From a virus, in the IMG/VR virus record IMGVR_UViG_3300025282_000076, positions 1 through 43,683 of that record: a stretch of DNA of 43,683 nt, one strand, 5' to 3'. A model generated the notes under the pieces. It saw only the letters and a list, made by a program, of their open reading frames with translations. It ran no database searches and had not been told where the DNA came from. A program made the translations under genes and the position numbers. Positions 32,387 through 43,423 of this stretch are shown in pieces (the stretch's first letter is position 1; each line of letters starts with the position of its first letter).

Positions 32387-35300
32387 ATGGCAGCGTCAAC
32401 TACAACAACGAAATTATGGGGCACCGAGGACAGAGACCTAACTCTTCTCCTTAAGCAATATTACCGCGCCTTCGCAGCGGAGGAAGCGTATAAACGCTTC
32501 TTTGGCGAGACCCCGGGCGTCGTCGACCCGGAGTTTACTTATGAGCACTGGAGCCAAAACATCCAGGATAAGACTAAGCACAACCAGTATGTGCGCACAG
32601 ACTCAACAAATGAATCACGACCCGAAGGGGGCGTCGCAGACCGCGGACAAGCCAAGGCGGCAATTGACGGCGCTAACTTTGCCAAAAACAGAAATGAGTT
32701 CCGGAAGGCAGGTGTTCTATCGGGACTGGACGCAGAGTATTTTGAGGAGTTTGCTGTTCGGACGGAGCCAAACAGTATGTGGGAGGAATGGCGACAGAAA
32801 GAAGGGACAGTCACAGAGAACTGGCGCAGAGATAATTTAGAGTATAATACTGGAATTCTCCAGCCCCTCAAGGGAACAGCTCAGCCAATCCCCGTCCTGA
32901 AATTTTGGGAGGACACAGAGCACATCGAAGGCGTTGGTCGCGACGGCAACACAGCGCCAGAACGCGGTCTTCGCGATGGTCTGTATCTTTTTATGTTTCA
33001 GCCATCTATGGTTCAGTCACTCCTAAACCGGGCTTATGTCACGACAGCAACAGGAGCTAGTTCTTACAATACCACTAGTCCCTTCTACACGCTCGCCCTC
33101 AGGGCAATGAGTCATGCTCGCGACTTGGCGCTAGGGCAACAATCCCTTAACACCAATGATGGCCGCACCGCGTCGTGGCAGAAAAGCGTAGATTTTTATC
33201 AGAGCGCTGTAGCCACCCTAACCACGCCTGATGAATCTGCAGGAATCCCTCCCAATGGAATGAAATATACGGTGACCGATCGCGTGTGGTACGTCTTAGA
33301 TGAACCTGCGTCGCAGTATGCTTCCCTGACTCCCGCCATTGGAGGGTGGGTATCTAGCCTTGTCAATGACCTTCCTACTAACTGGGATCCTCTAATCCAG
33401 ACCGTTATGCTAAGTCTTGATACTCCTTTCGGAGAAGGCGGCGACCTTTATACAGGCGCAGAGTGGGAAAAATTAGTCACAGATGAGCGTAATGCTATCC
33501 TTACCTTCTTTGGGGTTAAGATGACGACAACTGCTCTGCCTGATGCACCCGAATTTGATAATTTTGACCAGATTATTACGGATAAAGAAGTTGGAGACGA
33601 CTACACCGACACGGTCATCGCCGCGCGCCAAAATCTCACCCCACGTGACATGCAGTGCTATCTATTAGAGAATATTCGCTCCATTGCAGCCCAGCGCCAG
33701 AGCGGAGGTAGATACGCTTCTAATTATAAGAACGTTAAAAAAATATCCACCGGAGGAAAACCGGCGCTTCTCACCAATATCCTGCGCCATGGCAAAAACA
33801 CCGCCGACATTCAGAAGATATTAGACATATGTCCAGATGTTTATGGGTTACTCCAGCCTTATATTCGGATATTTCGTGTAGATTATGATAATAACGGTAA
33901 TGTAGCTCAGGTCAATATTAAAGTCGATGGAAAGCGGAAAAGAGTAGATGCAGAAGCGGAGCTAATTATTCCTAATTTCCTAAATAGACCGGATGTTGCT
34001 AGCATTTTATTAGGCACCCGCGGGCGCGCAGCGGGGAGTGGGCTCAAATCCTTTTCGTGGAGCCTCGATGGCACACAGCCGGCCGAAGTCGACAACAACA
34101 TTAAAGCTACGATTCAAATATATTTTCAGTCAGTGAGTGATTTCTTCAACGGAGTGTCCCAAGCGGGTAAGCAAGACACAAACGGCATGCCCCTCCCTAA
34201 CTTTCTAGATCTTATTGTAAATTCGCCCGCTATTCGCCAAAACAACTCGGGAACCTCAAAATCAAACAAGACACCGGCAACGATCTTGCATCGTAAGTAT
34301 GAGGGCGCTAATTTTAGGATAAAAGCTGAAGTAGGCTGGGCACGACCGGACCCAAACGCGCTAGCGGGCGTATTAAGGGGAACAGCTGACGCTAAGAAGT
34401 TCGCGAGCCTTATCGAAGCCACCCGTACCACCCTCTTCCTACAGTGCGTTCGTCACAACCTAGATTTCCGTCAAGACGGAACTGTGATGATGGACATTAG
34501 TTATGTTGCCGGATTGGCAGGTATTCTCAGTTCCCCTAAAGCCAACATTTTAGCACCATCAACCGATAGTATCCTAGAGAGCCTATCATCAGTAAAAGCA
34601 GAGCTGGATGAAACAAACAAAGCGCAGAATCTGACCGCCCGCCAGCAAGCCCGCAAAGATGAACTTCTCGAAGAGAGAAATAAGATAATTCAACAAGACC
34701 GCCTTATTAAATATAAGAAACTATTAAGAGGACTCTTTAGTTCCACCGACTCCAAAATATATCAGCTCCCGGTAGATATTAATGATATGCTCCGGGAACC
34801 CTGGAGTAAATTATCCGATGCACAGCGCGCCCAACGAGCTAAGCGCAAGGAAGGCGAAGCTAAGAGCTTCTTAATGACAAATCCCCAGCAGCTGAATCTC
34901 ACATTATTGGGCGCCGTAAGCGACTCTTTGTCCGCCGGCGGCACGGATAACGGAGCCGCTGCCTTCTCGGAAGCAGAACAAAAGCGATATGCGGAAATTC
35001 AATCAAGAAGCAGCCAATTTAAGTTTGTGCCCTTTATGTTTCTTGGGGACCTCATCGACAACGTGATTGAACAAACTACTGTTAACAACAATGGCACCAA
35101 ACTTAACTTTACAACTTTTCTCTCAGACACCGATATGGTAGACCCTCTGAAAGCCCTCCAGCTCAAGGGTATTACGAGCCTTCAGGATATAGATCTCAAA
35201 GATGTTGGTTTCCTAGAGAAACTGAGACAATCCGACCCCATATCCTTCCGCGACGATAACGGAATTGTGCTCAGCATCAATATAGGCGATATCCCCATCT

Positions 35301-36376
35301 CAGTGGATGCCTTTCAGGTTTGGTTTAAAGATAACGTAATTAAAAAAGATCTAGAGAAATTTTATTTGCTGTACTTTATTAAGAAGCTGTGTGCAGATTT
35401 AATTGTGAAGGCTTTTCAGTCCGACTGCTTTGGGGAAGACCTGAGAATTAACCAGCGGTTTGATGCTCATCCTGTTACTTATAAGTCCGCCGGCAGCCCA
35501 ATCCCCGCCTCCATCTCAGCCACCGCCTTTGGAAAAAAGCTGCAAATCAAGACTTCCACACCTACCAGCCAGACGCATAATGCTATTGTGGTATTACCCA
35601 CTGATTCCCGCCCTGGTAATCTGAAGGGAGACTACTGGAAAGACCTTGCAGTAGGTATTCATCACCATCATATCGGCGCGCCCTGCGGACTCCTTAAAAC
35701 GATTAAATTCAATAGAATGGACCAGGAATATCTTAGAGAAGCCAATATTCAGAAAGAGGGCGCCCTAGGTCCGGAGCAACTCCGAGAGTTATATACGGTT
35801 ACAATTGAAATGGTGGGAAATAACCTATATGAGAATGGCATGTATATTTATATTAGTCCCACTCTGATGGATGCCAACAAGGACAACCTGGATTATCTGG
35901 GGCTTCATGGGTATTACTTGATTACGTCTGTTGCTTCTAAAGTCACAAGCGCCGGCTTCACCACCACTATCAAGGCGCTTCATCAGGCTGTCGACTTTAC
36001 GAATAATTCGGATCTGGTACCAGAGATGTATGATCTTCCGCCCGAACCGCCCCTGCCGGGCTCCAATCCAGCCCCTGAGAAGTCTAAGTCTCAGCTTGAG
36101 AGCGAGGCTAATGCAAAAGAAGCGGCTACAGCTGAAGCCACCCGGACTGCTGCAGCAACCAAAGCCCAGGAAAACCCGGACGACATTGAGGCACAGAAGG
36201 CGGCTCTGGGCGCCCAATATGCACTGGATGTGAAATTGCTCTCCCCAACGTCGCGCCCAGACCTCACCAACTCGGAGCGCACCGCAGCCGTGAAGAAGCT
36301 CGCCGACAAGTTCCTGACTGACTCCAAAGCGCTTGAAGCAAAGTTTAAGGGACCCGAGGATCCCCCCAGCGAATGA
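32387..36376 (+). CDS. Very large baseplate protein, probable hub component
   Basis: The product is 1329 residues, the longest in the window. The N-terminal part (1 to ~400) is alpha/beta with WGTEDRDLTLLLKQYYRAFA at the start. A charged helical insert occurs near 735-790 (LSSVKAELDETNKAQNLTAR). The C-terminal ~300 residues include a rare HHHH run (IHHHHIGAP), then ELYTVTIEMVGNNLYENGMY, LGLHGYYLITSVASKV and TTTIKALHQA, resembling the beta-barrel region of gp27/gpD-type hub proteins. A Pro/Ala/Lys-rich low-complexity tail (~1215-1329) ends it. The hub reading rests on C-terminal pattern and position only. The stop overlaps the next start (ATGA). Confidence 0.55.
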   Translation: MAASTTTTKLWGTEDRDLTLLLKQYYRAFAAEEAYKRFFGETPGVVDPEFTYEHWSQNIQDKTKHNQYVRTDSTNESRPEGGVADRGQAKAAIDGANFAKNRNEFRKAGVLSGLDAEYFEEFAVRTEPNSMWEEWRQKEGTVTENWRRDNLEYNTGILQPLKGTAQPIPVLKFWEDTEHIEGVGRDGNTAPERGLRDGLYLFMFQPSMVQSLLNRAYVTTATGASSYNTTSPFYTLALRAMSHARDLALGQQSLNTNDGRTASWQKSVDFYQSAVATLTTPDESAGIPPNGMKYTVTDRVWYVLDEPASQYASLTPAIGGWVSSLVNDLPTNWDPLIQTVMLSLDTPFGEGGDLYTGAEWEKLVTDERNAILTFFGVKMTTTALPDAPEFDNFDQIITDKEVGDDYTDTVIAARQNLTPRDMQCYLLENIRSIAAQRQSGGRYASNYKNVKKISTGGKPALLTNILRHGKNTADIQKILDICPDVYGLLQPYIRIFRVDYDNNGNVAQVNIKVDGKRKRVDAEAELIIPNFLNRPDVASILLGTRGRAAGSGLKSFSWSLDGTQPAEVDNNIKATIQIYFQSVSDFFNGVSQAGKQDTNGMPLPNFLDLIVNSPAIRQNNSGTSKSNKTPATILHRKYEGANFRIKAEVGWARPDPNALAGVLRGTADAKKFASLIEATRTTLFLQCVRHNLDFRQDGTVMMDISYVAGLAGILSSPKANILAPSTDSILESLSSVKAELDETNKAQNLTARQQARKDELLEERNKIIQQDRLIKYKKLLRGLFSSTDSKIYQLPVDINDMLREPWSKLSDAQRAQRAKRKEGEAKSFLMTNPQQLNLTLLGAVSDSLSAGGTDNGAAAFSEAEQKRYAEIQSRSSQFKFVPFMFLGDLIDNVIEQTTVNNNGTKLNFTTFLSDTDMVDPLKALQLKGITSLQDIDLKDVGFLEKLRQSDPISFRDDNGIVLSINIGDIPISVDAFQVWFKDNVIKKDLEKFYLLYFIKKLCADLIVKAFQSDCFGEDLRINQRFDAHPVTYKSAGSPIPASISATAFGKKLQIKTSTPTSQTHNAIVVLPTDSRPGNLKGDYWKDLAVGIHHHHIGAPCGLLKTIKFNRMDQEYLREANIQKEGALGPEQLRELYTVTIEMVGNNLYENGMYIYISPTLMDANKDNLDYLGLHGYYLITSVASKVTSAGFTTTIKALHQAVDFTNNSDLVPEMYDLPPEPPLPGSNPAPEKSKSQLESEANAKEAATAEATRTAAATKAQENPDDIEAQKAALGAQYALDVKLLSPTSRPDLTNSERTAAVKKLADKFLTDSKALEAKFKGPEDPPSE

Positions 36377-37677
36377 CCACTTTTAATTATACCGAAGACG
36401 ACCTCCGCCTGCCCGCGGGAGATAACGGACTTACATCCTATGCGCTCTTTTTCCAGCGTATGCTTTATAAAGAGGTAATATTCCCCTCTTCCCTTGTGGC
36501 CCCTCTAGACACGTGGTATGGCAAACAGCTTTATGGCGTGGTAGATCAAACACAAAACAGTATTATTGCAGCCCCCCAAAATCTAACCGCAATTCCAACC
36601 GCTGTCACTCCTAATCTGGTTGCTCTGAATTTTATGGTTGAGGCGTTTGAAGACTTCGCCGCACACATGCGAAAGGGAGTGGTGATGGGGGTACTCCGAG
36701 CCGACGGCACCCCTCTCCTTAGGGATATGAAGGCTAAGAGAGCCTACATTGACCCTAGCAATATTTACCGACAGTTCCAGCAACAGGTTTACTCTGGATT
36801 CATTAAAAGCCGTAAAGTAGAACAACTCAATCAGATCCGGAGCTTTGAAACATATCTTCCTCAGATGCTCAACTACCTGCGCCTCGTTTCCCAAACGGTT
36901 CCGGTAACCAAAACTGGATTTATGGTGTCGGGAATCTGCAGCGTGGTCAATTCCGGATTAACCATTTCCATTGATAATGGCCCTGCAGACGACGACGCAT
37001 ATAAGTATCAACAATTTATTGATGATCCCAATTTTAGCTTTTATTTGCGCGCAGCTAAGAAATTCGGACTTAGTGTAAACAAGAATATGCCTTGGATGCT
37101 CACAGCTGATCTCTTTTCGGATGCTATTCTAAAATATCTTAATGGTTATATATTACCGGACGGATCTCTGGTCAATGAAACTAATTTCTTTGAGACATAT
37201 TATCAACCTACGCATTTCGCAGATGTGACAATCCTTAAAACCTTCATTATTAATGCATATAAAAACTTTGTGGAACAAAAGCCCCTCTACGAAGTAGAAA
37301 AGTTTAGTAGCACTTGTAACACTACAAGTATCAACACCAAGTATCGCGTGCAATTGCCCCCGGACGCCCATGATCTCTTAACCGACAAGCAGCTTCTGTA
37401 TTTATACTTGGACTTACGAGACAACGAAACAGGCAACAGTCGCCCACCCACCTCAAAGATCAAAAGAGAGATCCAGAGCGTTTATTCTTTGCGCCCGGAC
37501 TCGTCCTTGACTGCTGTCCAGAACGCCGCCGAGTACATCAATCTTTTGTACCGCGATTACATCTATGAGCGTTCCTATTTAATGACCGCAGACGTTTTTA
37601 CGAGATTAGGGCTTGACAATCAGGCTAGATCTGGTAATATTAGTACAGCTGGAGCAGTTACCCAGCAGTTGTACTAG
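36373..37677 (+). CDS. Unknown structural protein at end of baseplate cluster
   Basis: The product is 434 residues, coupled to the giant gene by ATGA. It is mixed alpha/beta. Recognisable stretches are an N-terminal LTSYALFFQRMLYKEVIFPS, a helical AYIDPSNIYRQFQQQVYSGF, and FYLRAAKKFGLSVNKNMPWM. I see no enzyme motif, membrane helix or repeat. Tight coupling with the hub-like gene suggests a baseplate wedge or hub partner. It is the last gene of the structural block; a promoter for the replication genes lies within its 3' end. Confidence 0.65.
   Translation: MTTFNYTEDDLRLPAGDNGLTSYALFFQRMLYKEVIFPSSLVAPLDTWYGKQLYGVVDQTQNSIIAAPQNLTAIPTAVTPNLVALNFMVEAFEDFAAHMRKGVVMGVLRADGTPLLRDMKAKRAYIDPSNIYRQFQQQVYSGFIKSRKVEQLNQIRSFETYLPQMLNYLRLVSQTVPVTKTGFMVSGICSVVNSGLTISIDNGPADDDAYKYQQFIDDPNFSFYLRAAKKFGLSVNKNMPWMLTADLFSDAILKYLNGYILPDGSLVNETNFFETYYQPTHFADVTILKTFIINAYKNFVEQKPLYEVEKFSSTCNTTSINTKYRVQLPPDAHDLLTDKQLLYLYLDLRDNETGNSRPPTSKIKREIQSVYSLRPDSSLTAVQNAAEYINLLYRDYIYERSYLMTADVFTRLGLDNQARSGNISTAGAVTQQLY
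37613..37640 (+). promoter_or_regulatory. Sigma70-type promoter inside the 3' end of the last structural gene
   Basis: TTGACA (37613-37618), a 16-bp spacer ending in TGG (extended -10), and TAATAT (37635-37640, 4 of 6 matches). The predicted start is ~40 nt before the polymerase TTG codon. The position at the switch from structural to replication genes supports it. Confidence 0.6.
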
Positions 37678-37685
37678 GAGAAAAC

Positions 37686-38873
37686 TTGCTTTTTCAGGTT
37701 CTGGATCATAAGAAAGATTGCGTCGGATATTTCGCCGACAACCACATTCACTCAACAGGCAATGTACCCTCCCAAGGGACCACTTGGGAGATGTCCGAGC
37801 ATATGCACGGTGAGACGTACGAGCTAGGACGCATCTACAGCCAAGGAGCGCCTCTTACAGACGTTTGTCCGGAAGATATGAAGGAGGACTGGGAAAAGAT
37901 CAAGAAGACGCTTAAATCGTGTCTGAGAGCCTTCAACACTGCCAAGCTTTCTTTGCACGAAAATTGCCTTTATGACGTATTGCCCGAATACTTCCTTTAT
38001 GAGTACCTAAGTGCCAAAAATAAGATTACCCAACATGTAGTTGAGAATCTTCCGAGACCTAAGAATCATGACGAGATGCTAAATCTCAATAAGATGCTCG
38101 TTGATATCCGCTCCCGGCACTTAAACATTAATATCAACCCTATTAAGCACCTTTTAAGCTCAGTCCGCGGAATGAACTTCCACCGCACCCTCCATAACGT
38201 GCGACACGTATGCGATTATAACCCATGGGGGACGATTACTGGCAGACTCTCTACACATCCTCACACTTTTCCGATTCTGACAATGAACAAAGAGTTCCGA
38301 GCCTGTATTCACCCTGTTAATGATTATTTGGTTGAACTGGACTTTAACGCCGCAGAGCTAAGAGTGCTGTTGGCATTGGCCGGCGTTGAGCAACCCCAAA
38401 ACGACATTCATGACTGGAATGTAAAGAACATTTTTGGAGGTCAGCTAACCCGTGAGGAAGCCAAGACAAAGACTTTTGCATGGCTGTATTCTAGTAAGCA
38501 AAACAAGGACTTAGAGCGACTTTATAACAAGGATTTAGTGCGAAATAAGTATTGGGATGGCTGTAAAATTGAGACAGATTATGGTAGAATAATAGAGAAT
38601 GTGGACGACCATCATGCGCTCAACTACATCATTCAGAGCACCACGATTGATATGGTGCATGAGCAGGCATATAAGGTTTATGAGTTATTGAAGGACAAGA
38701 AGAGCTATATTTCATTTTTGATTCACGATGCGGTCTATATTGATTTGGCCGAAGAAGATCGCTATGATTTATTGAATTTGCTTGACACCTTTAAGAAAAC
38801 ACGTTATGATATGTTCAAGGTCAATGTCGCCGCCGGCAAAAACCTTGGAGATATGAAGGAACTAAGGTTATGA
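37686..38873 (+). CDS. Family A DNA polymerase, polymerase domain only
   Basis: The product is 395 residues from a TTG start behind TAGGAGA. All three family A palm/fingers motifs are present. Motif A is VELDFNAAELRVLLAL with catalytic D219. Motif B (O-helix) has R256, K260, F264 and Y268 at the exact four-residue spacing of Pol I. Motif C is LIHDAVYID with H347 and D348. A TGRLSTHPHTFPIL-type segment before motif A matches the family's 'GR(L/I)S...P..Q' region. There is no room for a 3'-5' exonuclease domain (Pol I Klenow ~605, T7 ~704 residues). T4 uses a family B polymerase, so this is a different replication core. Proofreading may be encoded elsewhere. Confidence 0.88.
   Translation: MLFQVLDHKKDCVGYFADNHIHSTGNVPSQGTTWEMSEHMHGETYELGRIYSQGAPLTDVCPEDMKEDWEKIKKTLKSCLRAFNTAKLSLHENCLYDVLPEYFLYEYLSAKNKITQHVVENLPRPKNHDEMLNLNKMLVDIRSRHLNININPIKHLLSSVRGMNFHRTLHNVRHVCDYNPWGTITGRLSTHPHTFPILTMNKEFRACIHPVNDYLVELDFNAAELRVLLALAGVEQPQNDIHDWNVKNIFGGQLTREEAKTKTFAWLYSSKQNKDLERLYNKDLVRNKYWDGCKIETDYGRIIENVDDHHALNYIIQSTTIDMVHEQAYKVYELLKDKKSYISFLIHDAVYIDLAEEDRYDLLNLLDTFKKTRYDMFKVNVAAGKNLGDMKELRL
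38782..38810 (+). promoter_or_regulatory. Sigma70-type promoter inside the polymerase gene
   Basis: TTGACA (38782-38787), 17-bp spacer, TATGAT (38805-38810, 5 of 6 matches). The predicted start is ~50 nt before the MazG-like gene. It would allow the genes downstream to be expressed apart from the polymerase. Confidence 0.65.
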
Positions 38874-39187
38874 AGAAGATTTATCAAAAACTAGTAAGGG
38901 ATCGCATCCCCGGCATCATTGCAGACGCCGGCAAGTCCTTCGCCACGCGGAAGGCGTCACCCGAGGAATTAATGGACTACGCTATGAAGAAGCTTCAAGA
39001 GGAAGTGACAGAATTCATCGAGGATCCCTGTGCAGAGGAGGCCGCCGACATTATGGAGATCTTCCACTTTATTTGCGACCAGTTGGAGATCCGCGACCTT
39101 ACGGTTGTCGCAGAAAAAACCGCAAAACGCGTCAGTCGCGGCGGCTTTGAGCAGGGCATCATCCTAGAGTGGGTTGACGACGAATGA
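38870..39187 (+). CDS. MazG-like nucleotide pyrophosphohydrolase
   Basis: The product is 105 residues, coupled to the polymerase gene by ATGA. The N-terminus YQKLVRDRIPGIIADAG is the signature of the small MazG-like/PRA-PH-like group. The metal-binding helices are KLQEEVTEFIED (E-E-x-x-E) and AEEAADIMEIFHF (E-E-x-x-D). Enzymes of this all-alpha superfamily hydrolyse NTPs or dNTPs to monophosphates and pyrophosphate. In phages they may clean the nucleotide pool or change the stringent response; the substrate cannot be read here. Its place beside the polymerase fits nucleotide metabolism. Confidence 0.85.
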   Translation: MKKIYQKLVRDRIPGIIADAGKSFATRKASPEELMDYAMKKLQEEVTEFIEDPCAEEAADIMEIFHFICDQLEIRDLTVVAEKTAKRVSRGGFEQGIILEWVDDE

Positions 39188-40050
39188 TAGTTGTCGGACT
39201 TGGCAAAGCAGGCTGCAATATCGCCAAAGCATTTTCAAAGTTTCCACAATATGAGACGCTTGGAATTGACACGGACGATTCAGCAGATATTACCATTCGG
39301 AAGAAAACTAATCATGAAGACTATGATGAAAACTTCCCCAACCTGCGAAGAAAGTTAAAATTCAGCAACGAGGACGTTAGTGTAATTATTGCCGGCTCAG
39401 GGCAGATTTCTGGGGGCTCATTACGCCTCCTGGAGCAGCTTAATAAGAATAAACTTACAGTGATTTATATTCAAGGCGATACCGCAATTATGTCGGAGGT
39501 GCAGAAGAAGCAGGAAAAAATTGTTAGAAATGTCTTGCAAGAGTACGCTCGCTCTGGTATTATTGAGAGTATGATTATGGTAAGTAACAGTGCCCTAGAG
39601 CGCAGCATCGGCGACATGTCCATCATCGGATATTACGATACGCTCAATCAGGCAATTGTTAACACTATTCACATGATAAACGTATTTAAGCACACAGAGC
39701 CTGTGATCGGGAACTTCATCCAACCGGCCCAGACCAGCAGGATCGCAACGGTAGGGATCGTCGACATTACAGACGAGGATGAGAGAAATCACACAGAAAA
39801 ATGGTTTTACCCCTTGACAGGAGTTCGAGATGTGGTATACTATTATGGTATCAGCGAGGAAGATTTGAAGAACGACGGCACATTGTTTAGGAAGATTAAT
39901 AGCTTTGTGAAGTCACGCGTCGATGATGCCTTGAATGTTTCTTATGGAGTCTTTAAAACAACATATGAACAAAAATATTGTTATTGCATTCGGTACACCT
40001 CTGTGGTACAATCGTATGCAGAACTACTAGACGATCAAGAGATTAGTTGA
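39184..40050 (+). CDS. Tubulin/FtsZ-superfamily-like protein
   Basis: The product is 288 residues, coupled to the MazG-like gene by ATGA. The N-terminal strand-loop MIVVGLGKAGCNIAKAF (G5, G7, G10, N12) matches the first nucleotide loop of FtsZ/CetZ proteins. It is followed by YETLGIDTDD (27-32), like the FtsZ 'aiNTD' strand. After a charged segment comes VIIAGSGQISGGSLRLLEQL (68-87), in the place of the tubulin GGGTG(T/S)G signature. A helix with NQAIVNTIHMINVF could be H7. The usual T7-loop NxDxxD is not visible: GNFIQPAQTSRIATVGIV stands there, so GTP hydrolysis may be altered or lost. It is shorter than FtsZ. A Rossmann-type NAD-binding fold is the main alternative for the first loop, but the second glycine loop favours tubulin. 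Confidence 0.55.
   Translation: MIVVGLGKAGCNIAKAFSKFPQYETLGIDTDDSADITIRKKTNHEDYDENFPNLRRKLKFSNEDVSVIIAGSGQISGGSLRLLEQLNKNKLTVIYIQGDTAIMSEVQKKQEKIVRNVLQEYARSGIIESMIMVSNSALERSIGDMSIIGYYDTLNQAIVNTIHMINVFKHTEPVIGNFIQPAQTSRIATVGIVDITDEDERNHTEKWFYPLTGVRDVVYYYGISEEDLKNDGTLFRKINSFVKSRVDDALNVSYGVFKTTYEQKYCYCIRYTSVVQSYAELLDDQEIS
39814..39841 (+). promoter_or_regulatory. Sigma70-type promoter inside the tubulin-like gene (distal)
   Basis: TTGACA (39814-39819), 16-bp spacer, TATACT (39836-39841). The two hexamers and spacing are identical to the promoter at 364-391. The predicted start is ~230 nt before the ssDNA-binding protein gene. Confidence 0.6.
39984..40012 (+). promoter_or_regulatory. Extended -10 promoter for the ssDNA-binding protein gene (proximal)
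   Basis: TTGCAT (39984-39989), 17-bp spacer ending TGG, TACAAT (40007-40012, 5 of 6 matches plus TGn). The predicted start is ~60 nt before the ATG at 40080, in the last codons of the upstream gene. Confidence 0.5.
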
Positions 40051-40079: not shown

Positions 40080-40853
40080 ATGGGTATTAACTTAGATAAG
40101 ATGCGAGAAAAGCTCGCATCCCTTAGAGGAGAGGGCAACTCCTCAGATTCGGTTTTCTGGCGTCCGATTGACGGCGAGCAAGATATCCGCATTGTCCCAA
40201 CAGCTGATGGAGACCCCTTCAAAGAGATGTGGTTCCATTACAACGTAGAGAAGGGTGGATTCCTGTGTCCGAAGCGTAACTTCGGCGACGACTGCCCTGT
40301 TTGCGAGTTTGCTTCACAGCTCTGGCGAGAAGGCGTCGACAACAACGACGACCACTCTAAGAAGACGGCAAAGAGCCTCTTTGTTCGCCAGCGCTTCTTC
40401 AGCCCCGTGATGGTTCGCGGTGAGGAAGAGAAGGGCATCCGCGTCTGGGGCTACGGTAAGACTGCTTACGAGAACCTTTTGACGCTTGTGCTCAACCCTG
40501 AGTATGGTGATATCACCGATACTGAAGCTGGCACTGACTTGACGATGACGTATGGAAAGCCCCCAGGCGCCTCGTTCCCTCAGACCAAGCTTGTTCCACG
40601 GCGCCGCTCGTCTGCACTTTGTGCTGACATGACGCCAGACAAGTGCGCCGAGTTACTTGATAGTATCCCAGAGTTTTCTGGGCTGTTTGATCGTAAGACA
40701 ACGGCAGATGTTCAGGCATCCCTGGACACTTTCGTTAATGGTATGGTCGAGGATCCTGAGTCTGTCAGTTCCGAAACCACGCGATATGGTAACAAGACCG
40801 AGGGCGAAGGAAACGCCGTCGATGCCGCTTTCGCAGAGTTAGGGTCGCTCTAA
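40080..40853 (+). CDS. Single-stranded DNA-binding protein (T4 gp32-like)
   Basis: The product is 257 residues (T4 gp32 is 301). The basic N-terminal helix (INLDKMREKLASLRG) is the cooperative-binding arm. The OB core carries a zinc site of the gp32 type: H53 (WFHYN), C63, C72 and C75 (FLCPKRNFGDDCPVC). T4 uses H64, C77, C87 and C90, so spacing is slightly tighter here. Aromatic strands follow (LFVRQRFFSPVMV, IRVWGYGKTAYENLL). The C-terminus is acidic and ends AFAELGSL. It coats ssDNA for the polymerase and loads UvsX, which is encoded downstream. Two promoter candidates lie in the preceding gene, and the SD is AAGGAG. Confidence 0.9.
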   Translation: MGINLDKMREKLASLRGEGNSSDSVFWRPIDGEQDIRIVPTADGDPFKEMWFHYNVEKGGFLCPKRNFGDDCPVCEFASQLWREGVDNNDDHSKKTAKSLFVRQRFFSPVMVRGEEEKGIRVWGYGKTAYENLLTLVLNPEYGDITDTEAGTDLTMTYGKPPGASFPQTKLVPRRRSSALCADMTPDKCAELLDSIPEFSGLFDRKTTADVQASLDTFVNGMVEDPESVSSETTRYGNKTEGEGNAVDAAFAELGSL

Positions 40854-42159: not shown

Positions 42160-42315
42160 ATGTTGACGGCGCTGTGCTTTGGTATCATGTTATATTGGAT
42201 GCTGGAGCTACAGCGCCAGATACGTGAAACTCAAGAAGAGGTCTCGCGACTTCACAAAGACTTCCTAGCTGAAGTTTATATAAAATACGGAGAGAGATTC
42301 GATGGCAAAGAGTAA
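42160..42315 (+). CDS. Small membrane-anchored protein, 51 residues
   Basis: The ATG at 42160 is 4 nt after the previous stop, with GGAGTAGG just before it. The product begins MLTALCFGIMLYWMLELQRQ, one short hydrophobic helix, followed by a charged helix (IRETQEEVSRLHKDFLAEVY). The frame runs 14 nt into uvsX. Size, SD, and the same anchor-plus-charged-helix plan as its upstream neighbour support a real gene. Function unknown. Confidence 0.6.
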   Translation: MLTALCFGIMLYWMLELQRQIRETQEEVSRLHKDFLAEVYIKYGERFDGKE

Positions 42316-43423
42316 GTCCAAAGCAGGCAAGATTTCAATTGACGGTCTGCGCACCTTAATTAATAAAACTTCGGGCGTGGAAGTCGCCCACAATCTGAAG
42401 GAAGCAAATCCTACAGAGGTTACAGAATGGATTCCCACTGGCTCGCGCTGGCTGGATTCCATCGTGTGTCGTGGCCAGCTTGCCGGCATCCCCGTTGGCA
42501 AGTTCACAGAGATTGCCGGTCTTGAATCGACGGGTAAATCTTTTATGGCTGCACAGTGCGCCGCAAATGCCCAGAAAATGGGCATGAATGTGGTGTATAT
42601 GGATTCAGAGTCAGCGATTGACCCAGGTTTCCTAGAACGAACCGGATGTGATTTAGAGAATCTGATCTATGTCCAGGCACAATCAGTGGAACATGTTCTA
42701 GAGACTGTCGAGGCTGTATTAGCCTCTGGTGCCGAACGAACCCTGTTCATCTGGGACTCGCTGGCTCTGACTCCTACTGTGTCCGATGTGGAGGGGGACT
42801 TTAATCCCCAATCCACGATGGCAATGAAGGCGCGTATTCTCTCAAAGGGAATGTCTAAACTAACAATCCCGATTGCGAATACAAAGTCCGCCTTCCTGGT
42901 GCTCAACCAGCTAAAGACTAATATTCCGCAGGGACCCAACGCACGTATCGTCGCAATGACGACACCCTATATCACTCCAGGCGGAAAGGCTATGCATTAT
43001 GTATATTCTCTGCGCATCTGGTTGACCGGGCGTAAGGCGAAGTCTGCTTTCATCGAAGATGAGAGTGGTTTCCGCATCGGTTCCGAGGTGAAGGTGAAGC
43101 TTGAGAAGTCTCGCTTCGGCACACAGGGACGCAACTGTGCGTTCAAGATCCTATGGGGCACCGACGAAGTTGGTATTCAGGATGCCGAGAGTTGGCTGGA
43201 AGCCATCAAGGGCTCCGATAATCTCAAGCAAGCCGGCGCATGGTTTGCGCTGGTTTATAAGGATGGCACAGAAGAGAAGTTCCAGACGGCTCATTGGGTG
43301 GAGAAACTCAAGGACGATAAGTTCAGAGGCCGCGTGTTTGAAATCATGGACGAACAGATCATTCGTAAGTTTGATATCCGGGAAGGCAACGCCGAGGATT
43401 TCTACGACGTAGATAAAGAATGA
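42302..43423 (+). CDS. uvsX: UvsX/RecA-family recombinase
   Basis: The product is 373 residues (T4 UvsX is 391). Walker A is GLESTGKS (73-80), in the segment KFTEIAGLESTGKSFMAAQC. Next come NVVYMDSESAIDPGF, and a Walker B-type strand TLFIWDSLALTP with D152. A loop with NPQSTMAMKARILSKGMSKL and the strand AFLVLNQLKTNI (L1/L2 region) follow, then GGKAMHYVYSLRIWL. The acidic C-terminal end contains EGNAEDFYDVDKE. It pairs homologous strands for recombination-dependent replication together with the gp32-like protein and the Mre11-Rad50 fusion. The SD is GGAGAGAG; the start lies within the small preceding frame. Confidence 0.95.
   Translation: MAKSKSKAGKISIDGLRTLINKTSGVEVAHNLKEANPTEVTEWIPTGSRWLDSIVCRGQLAGIPVGKFTEIAGLESTGKSFMAAQCAANAQKMGMNVVYMDSESAIDPGFLERTGCDLENLIYVQAQSVEHVLETVEAVLASGAERTLFIWDSLALTPTVSDVEGDFNPQSTMAMKARILSKGMSKLTIPIANTKSAFLVLNQLKTNIPQGPNARIVAMTTPYITPGGKAMHYVYSLRIWLTGRKAKSAFIEDESGFRIGSEVKVKLEKSRFGTQGRNCAFKILWGTDEVGIQDAESWLEAIKGSDNLKQAGAWFALVYKDGTEEKFQTAHWVEKLKDDKFRGRVFEIMDEQIIRKFDIREGNAEDFYDVDKE

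Follow-up and report, generated by a model that had tools for sequence, protein, structure and literature searches.

A divergent tubulin/FtsZ-fold protein encoded in the replication operon of a clade of uncultured phages

The window analysed here is the whole 43,683-nucleotide stretch of IMG/VR virus record IMGVR_UViG_3300025282_000076. An open reading frame on its + strand, starting with ATG at position 39184, encodes a product of 288 amino acids that is predicted to adopt the tubulin/FtsZ fold and is surrounded by replication genes:

32387-36373 and 36373-37674, two large upstream proteins of 1329 and 434 amino acids, neither with a match in PHROGs or Pfam
37686-38873, + strand, family-A DNA polymerase, short form, 395 amino acids (Pfam DNA_pol_A, 8e-13)
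38870-39187, + strand, MazG-like gene, 105 amino acids
39184-40050, + strand, divergent protein with a predicted tubulin/FtsZ fold and no T7 catalytic loop (AlphaFold, Foldseek against the PDB, hhalign against FtsZ)
40080-40853, + strand, gp32-like single-strand DNA-binding protein (Pfam gp32, 1.6e-13)
42302-43423, + strand, UvsX/RecA-type recombinase (PHROG UvsX-like, 2.6e-54; Pfam RecA, 8e-37)

The reading frame at 39184-40050 is a real gene, since it has at least about 590 related stretches in IMG/VR (profile scan, down to ~38% identity), is under strong purifying selection (dN/dS 0.02-0.07, computed against the three relatives with estimable dS), and overlaps the stop of the MazG-like gene with its start by 4 bases. 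A separate IMG/VR scan confirmed 102 stretches as carrying relatives. The window protein has no significant match in Pfam, PHROGs, NCBIfam or the PDB sequences, and tblastn with two family members returned no real match among the INPHARED isolates. Matches of E. coli FtsZ in INPHARED look like bacterial DNA filed as phage, and these were kept only as extra FtsZ sequences.

The order of the locus is constant, from the two large conserved proteins through the family-A polymerase, the MazG-like gene, the tubulin-fold gene and gp32 to the recombinase. The gene for the 434-amino-acid protein was found in 94 of the 94 loci with enough upstream DNA, polA lies upstream of the tubulin-fold gene in 99 of 100 loci, and gp32 and uvsX lie downstream in 121 of 121 and 73 of 73 loci, respectively, strongly supporting the coupling to polymerase and gp32 that had been proposed in the original prediction from the sequence of the window. 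The 4-base overlap with the upstream stop recurs in 90 of 138 loci. The same prediction had called the operon T4-type, which holds for the gp32-like and UvsX/RecA-type genes but not for the polymerase, which belongs to family A (Pol I type) rather than to the family-B type of T4. It had also named a MazG neighbour; a gene is indeed present upstream in 82 of 100 loci, but its MazG label comes from reading of the sequence, with no match in Pfam or NCBIfam. The operon position is evidence of co-expression and does not establish physical contact with the replisome.

The carriers are one clade of uncultured, non-jumbo tailed phages. In the nearest isolates, Microcystis phage Mel-JY01 and Flavobacterium phage immuto, the polymerase, SSB and recombinase stand in matching order without the tubulin-fold gene, and a sensitive profile and motif scan detected no hidden tubulin between polA and SSB of the sister phages. 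None of the 80 loci nearest Mel-JY01 by SSB has the gene, although only some of them reach the polymerase (28 loci without the tubulin-fold gene do). On an SSB tree (FastTree, with some long branches) the carriers cluster, with 2 changes as compared with 41 for shuffled labels. The sister loci without the gene, together with the 2 changes on the tree, indicate that it belongs to the core genes of a single clade. Among the carrier contigs examined, the longest reaches 194 kb (G001, 193.8 kb; loci L341-L350) and encodes PrkA, SpoVR, DUF444, a GroEL-type chaperonin, PhoH, a Clp protease and ribonucleotide reductase; its tRNAs and Pfam content give no clear host indication. A copy in the bacterial WOR-3 MAG CP070664.1 (L147, 7505-12864) sits on a fragment of phage DNA carrying polA, the tubulin-fold gene, gp32 and recA, probably placed there by a scaffolding error. 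Because this fragment stands between runs of N, it is uninformative on the host and was rejected as host evidence.

AlphaFold predicted the structure of the window protein with a pLDDT of 88.8 and a pTM of 0.88 (44 family sequences as input), and that of a 42%-identical relative with a pLDDT of 93.5 and a pTM of 0.91. Both models adopt the two-domain architecture of tubulin with the central helix H7. In Foldseek searches of the PDB with both models, the best 50 matches are FtsZ or TubZ without exception (E ~1e-12; TM by query length 0.59-0.75), the best match of the window protein is the FtsZ structure 1fsz (E 1.1e-12), and the matches extend through both domains over more than 300 columns. 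With fold matches at this level, the motifs from which a tubulin/FtsZ-like protein had been proposed are beyond chance. The expectation of FtsZ, CetZ or TubZ at the top of a fold search was borne out, and the ordinary NAD(P)-binding Rossmann fold, which had been named as the contrary outcome, is not what the best 50 matches returned.

A relation to FtsZ is also detectable at the level of sequence profiles. In hhalign, the family profile A2 aligns with a profile of 16 FtsZ sequences with a score of 40.9 (E 8.8e-5), and a repeat with a second profile gives E 1.6e-4, whereas decoys reach at most 24.3 for 60 shuffled-column profiles and at most 22.3 for 50 single E. coli K-12 proteins. E. coli FtsZ alone, as a single sequence, scores 19.8 and does not stand out, and the FtsZ profile is therefore needed for the signal. 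The suggested comparison with the Pfam Tubulin profile was less productive: PF00091 matches only below its cut-off and in few family members, and when it was run against 12 records it weakly matched the T1 portion of the tubulin-fold gene in two phage records, its sole match above the cut-off being the WOR-3 genome's own FtsZ. The fold matches and the FtsZ profile alignment together argue that the tubulin/FtsZ call is right and disfavour a NAD-type Rossmann protein; by its predicted structure, the window protein belongs to the tubulin/FtsZ fold superfamily.

The following features lie within the gene:

39196-39219, + strand, glycine-rich T1 loop GLGKAGCN at residues 5-12, placed by hhalign on T1 of FtsZ
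39391-39420, + strand, T4-like loop AGSGQISGGS at residues 70-79, shorter than T4 of FtsZ by two residues (hhalign, family alignment)
39586-39588, + strand, codon of N135, aligned with FtsZ N165 (T6, guanine contact)
39646-39648, + strand, codon of N155, which lies in H7 (a helix at 150-169 of the model) and aligns with N186/D187 of FtsZ, where tubulins make a second contact with guanine
39697-39741, + strand, T7/H8-equivalent stretch EPVIGNFIQPAQTSR, residues 172-186, without acids at 176-186, with H8 missing, and variable in the family

The reading frame and its motifs are found where they had been placed, with TLGIDTDD (residues 25-32) between the two glycine-rich loops. The GxGxxG of T1 is present, with G5, G7 and G10 each in ~95% of 153 distinct family members and nearly all of the remainder being gaps. 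N135 and N155 are each asparagine in 95% of the 153, and they align with positions that contact guanine in both FtsZ and tubulin; the guanine-contacting positions in T6 and H7 thus appear to be filled. A counter-sign to the guanine reading is that GxGxxG together with D29, an 89%-conserved residue at the end of strand 2, is also reminiscent of dinucleotide binding. The tubulin T4-loop signature [SAG]GGTG[SAT]G occurs in 0 of the 153 members, as compared with 14 of 16 FtsZ controls, PhuZ also being without it; likewise, the AGSGQISGGS loop of the window protein does not contain the tubulin signature GGGTG[ST]G, and T3 of FtsZ has no counterpart in the family. Judged by its sequences, the family is highly divergent within the tubulin superfamily. 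Near the end of H7, residues H163, M164 and N166 (39670-39681, residues 163-166) are 92-95% conserved, and no known tubulin counterpart explains them.

The absence of the catalytic T7 loop, already noticed in the original prediction, extends to the whole family: the window protein contains no NxDxx[DE], and none of the 153 distinct relatives has it in the T7 region (0/153), as compared with 15 of 16 FtsZ controls that have it, PhuZ failing the strict pattern. No acid is present at positions 176-186 in 28 of the 153 members, the window protein among them, and helix H8 is missing in both AlphaFold models. The T7/H8 stretch has an entropy of 2.19, as compared with 1.74 overall and 1.03 for T1. 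The end of the hhalign alignment puts HMINVF on the T7 loop of FtsZ; this placement was rejected, since helix H7 runs through HMINVF in both models. PhuZ fails the strict T4 and T7 patterns yet forms filaments; the loss of these patterns is therefore a pointer rather than proof, and by itself it does not exclude polymers. At the other end of the protein, a conserved acidic tail, [DG]DQ[DEK]I[SG], closes 68 of the 153 members (40027-40047, residues 282-288) and resembles a short interaction peptide.

The explanation that we consider somewhat probable is that these proteins form a new, compact and divergent family of the tubulin/FtsZ superfamily, encoded by a core replication-operon gene of one clade, which would bind guanine nucleotide, is unlikely to carry out canonical hydrolysis, and may act as a replication-linked switch or scaffold. 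Its functional half is weaker than its fold half. The family is distinct from the PhuZ, TubZ and FtsZ families. From the aligned positions, the conserved face of the protein may bind a guanine nucleotide. GTP hydrolysis by the canonical inter-subunit T7 mechanism would not occur, and the protein would serve the polymerase, SSB and recombinase as a switch or scaffold that senses nucleotide. With its translation coupled to the upstream gene, it is probably made in modest quantity. We favour a switch or scaffold over a dynamic filament because the nucleotide face is conserved, the catalytic loop is lost, the opposite face is variable, the start is coupled and the gene is placed in the operon. That the protein is a fixed, non-hydrolysing and nucleotide-sensing component of the phage replisome, a role not described for any tubulin relative in the papers that we consulted, is a more specific and tentative proposal, which we consider rather doubtful.

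The original prediction had suggested a filament former or an interfering FtsZ mimic. Neither is supported. Canonical head-to-tail filaments are argued against by the missing T7 acids, the missing H8 and the variable sequence of this face. The less probable alternatives rank with filaments through another interface before an FtsZ cap, and the cap before a dinucleotide-binding role. A working cytomotive filament that resembles PhuZ or TubZ functionally and uses a non-canonical interface to position phage DNA or replication foci would fit the tubulin fold of both models and the departure of PhuZ itself from the strict motifs, and Makarova and Koonin (PMC2875224) noted filament formation for every superfamily protein that had been characterised at the time. 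In addition, the acidic tail of the 68 members recalls phage phiKZ TubZ, whose filament contacts use an acidic C-terminal region (PMC3678025). However, the canonical interface of phiKZ TubZ, FtsZ and tubulin includes loop T7 and the base of H8 (PMC3678025), and these elements are altered or gone here in a variable stretch, while the coupled start would suggest only moderate expression; we thus regard such a filament as unlikely.

Phage inhibitors of FtsZ are known as small accessory proteins. A mimic that poisons host division by presenting one tubulin face and missing the other, capping or blocking host FtsZ filaments, would be expected to look much like this family, in which one face is conserved and the opposite T7/H8 face is lost, and the unrelated phage proteins lambda Kil and Rac KilR target FtsZ (PMC11762379, PMC12482147). 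By comparison, the conserved face differs from FtsZ in detail, with T3 and T4 altered, and the tubulin-fold gene is fixed within the replication operon in essentially all loci, unlike small accessory inhibitors, making a mimic improbable. Slightly more improbable still is a Rossmann enzyme binding NAD(P) or another dinucleotide, for which the model would be tubulin-like in appearance only. Besides GxGxxG and D29, weak TrkA_N matches to the first strand-loop-helix in 31 of 44 members (best 1.5e-5), the strongest Pfam lead in the family, point in this direction, but in the window protein TrkA_N extends no further than residue ~33 and stays below its cut-off, and the best 50 fold matches are all FtsZ or TubZ through both domains. 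E. coli TrkA scores 20.9 over a short stretch, as compared with 40.9 for the FtsZ profile, a single sequence and a profile not being strictly comparable.

Most known phage tubulins come from jumbo phages or from partition systems, and in both they act as filaments. Here, hundreds of uncultured phages carry a tubulin-fold protein without filament or catalytic features, with its nucleotide face kept and a fixed place in the replication operon, which suggests that a cytoskeletal fold has taken on a new role beside the phage replication machinery. If the switch or scaffold reading is true, the tubulin fold serves outside the cytoskeleton, and this short protein offers a direct test of such use.

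Our comparison with known systems reveals that the family shares with bacterial and archaeal FtsZ the overall fold, the T1 glycine loop, the T6 asparagine, the central helix H7, a polar residue close to the start of this helix, and the C-terminal sheet domain. By comparison, structural identity to FtsZ is ~17% or less, the family is without T3, the T4 signature, T7 NxDxxD and H8, and it sits in a phage replication operon. PhuZ and phiKZ TubZ, the tubulins of jumbo phages, are likewise phage-encoded tubulin folds of similar length (PhuZ 315 versus 288 amino acids), but the family profile has no similarity to PhuZ in hhalign (E 0.19), whereas the FtsZ profile does detect PhuZ (2.8e-5). PhuZ lies among other genes of a 316-kb nucleus-forming phage, as compared with 194 kb for the longest carrier contig examined here, and the protofilaments of phiKZ TubZ have a competent T7 site (PMC3678025), a motif that the window family is without.

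TubZ of the type III partition systems of plasmids and phages shares the fold, with 2xka and 4ei7 among the top matches, but is larger. TubZ works with TubR and a centromere (PMC7762940), whereas the neighbours of the window family are replication genes. FtsZl1 is, like this family, a strongly diverged superfamily member without canonical filament elements (PMC2875224), and Makarova and Koonin in 2010 met the same functional question for it and left it open (PMC2875224). FtsZl1 is cellular, is linked to vWA-domain genes and has an unidentifiable T6-H7 (PMC2875224), whereas the window family has a clear T6 and H7 and is found in a phage replication context. Among viral proteins, the best fold match is A0A6J5RW92, annotated as 'FtsZ Cell division GTPase' of an uncultured Caudovirales phage, which differs from the window protein in its length of 452 amino acids and has 16% identity to it, and matches its fold with a TM of 0.76 by query length.
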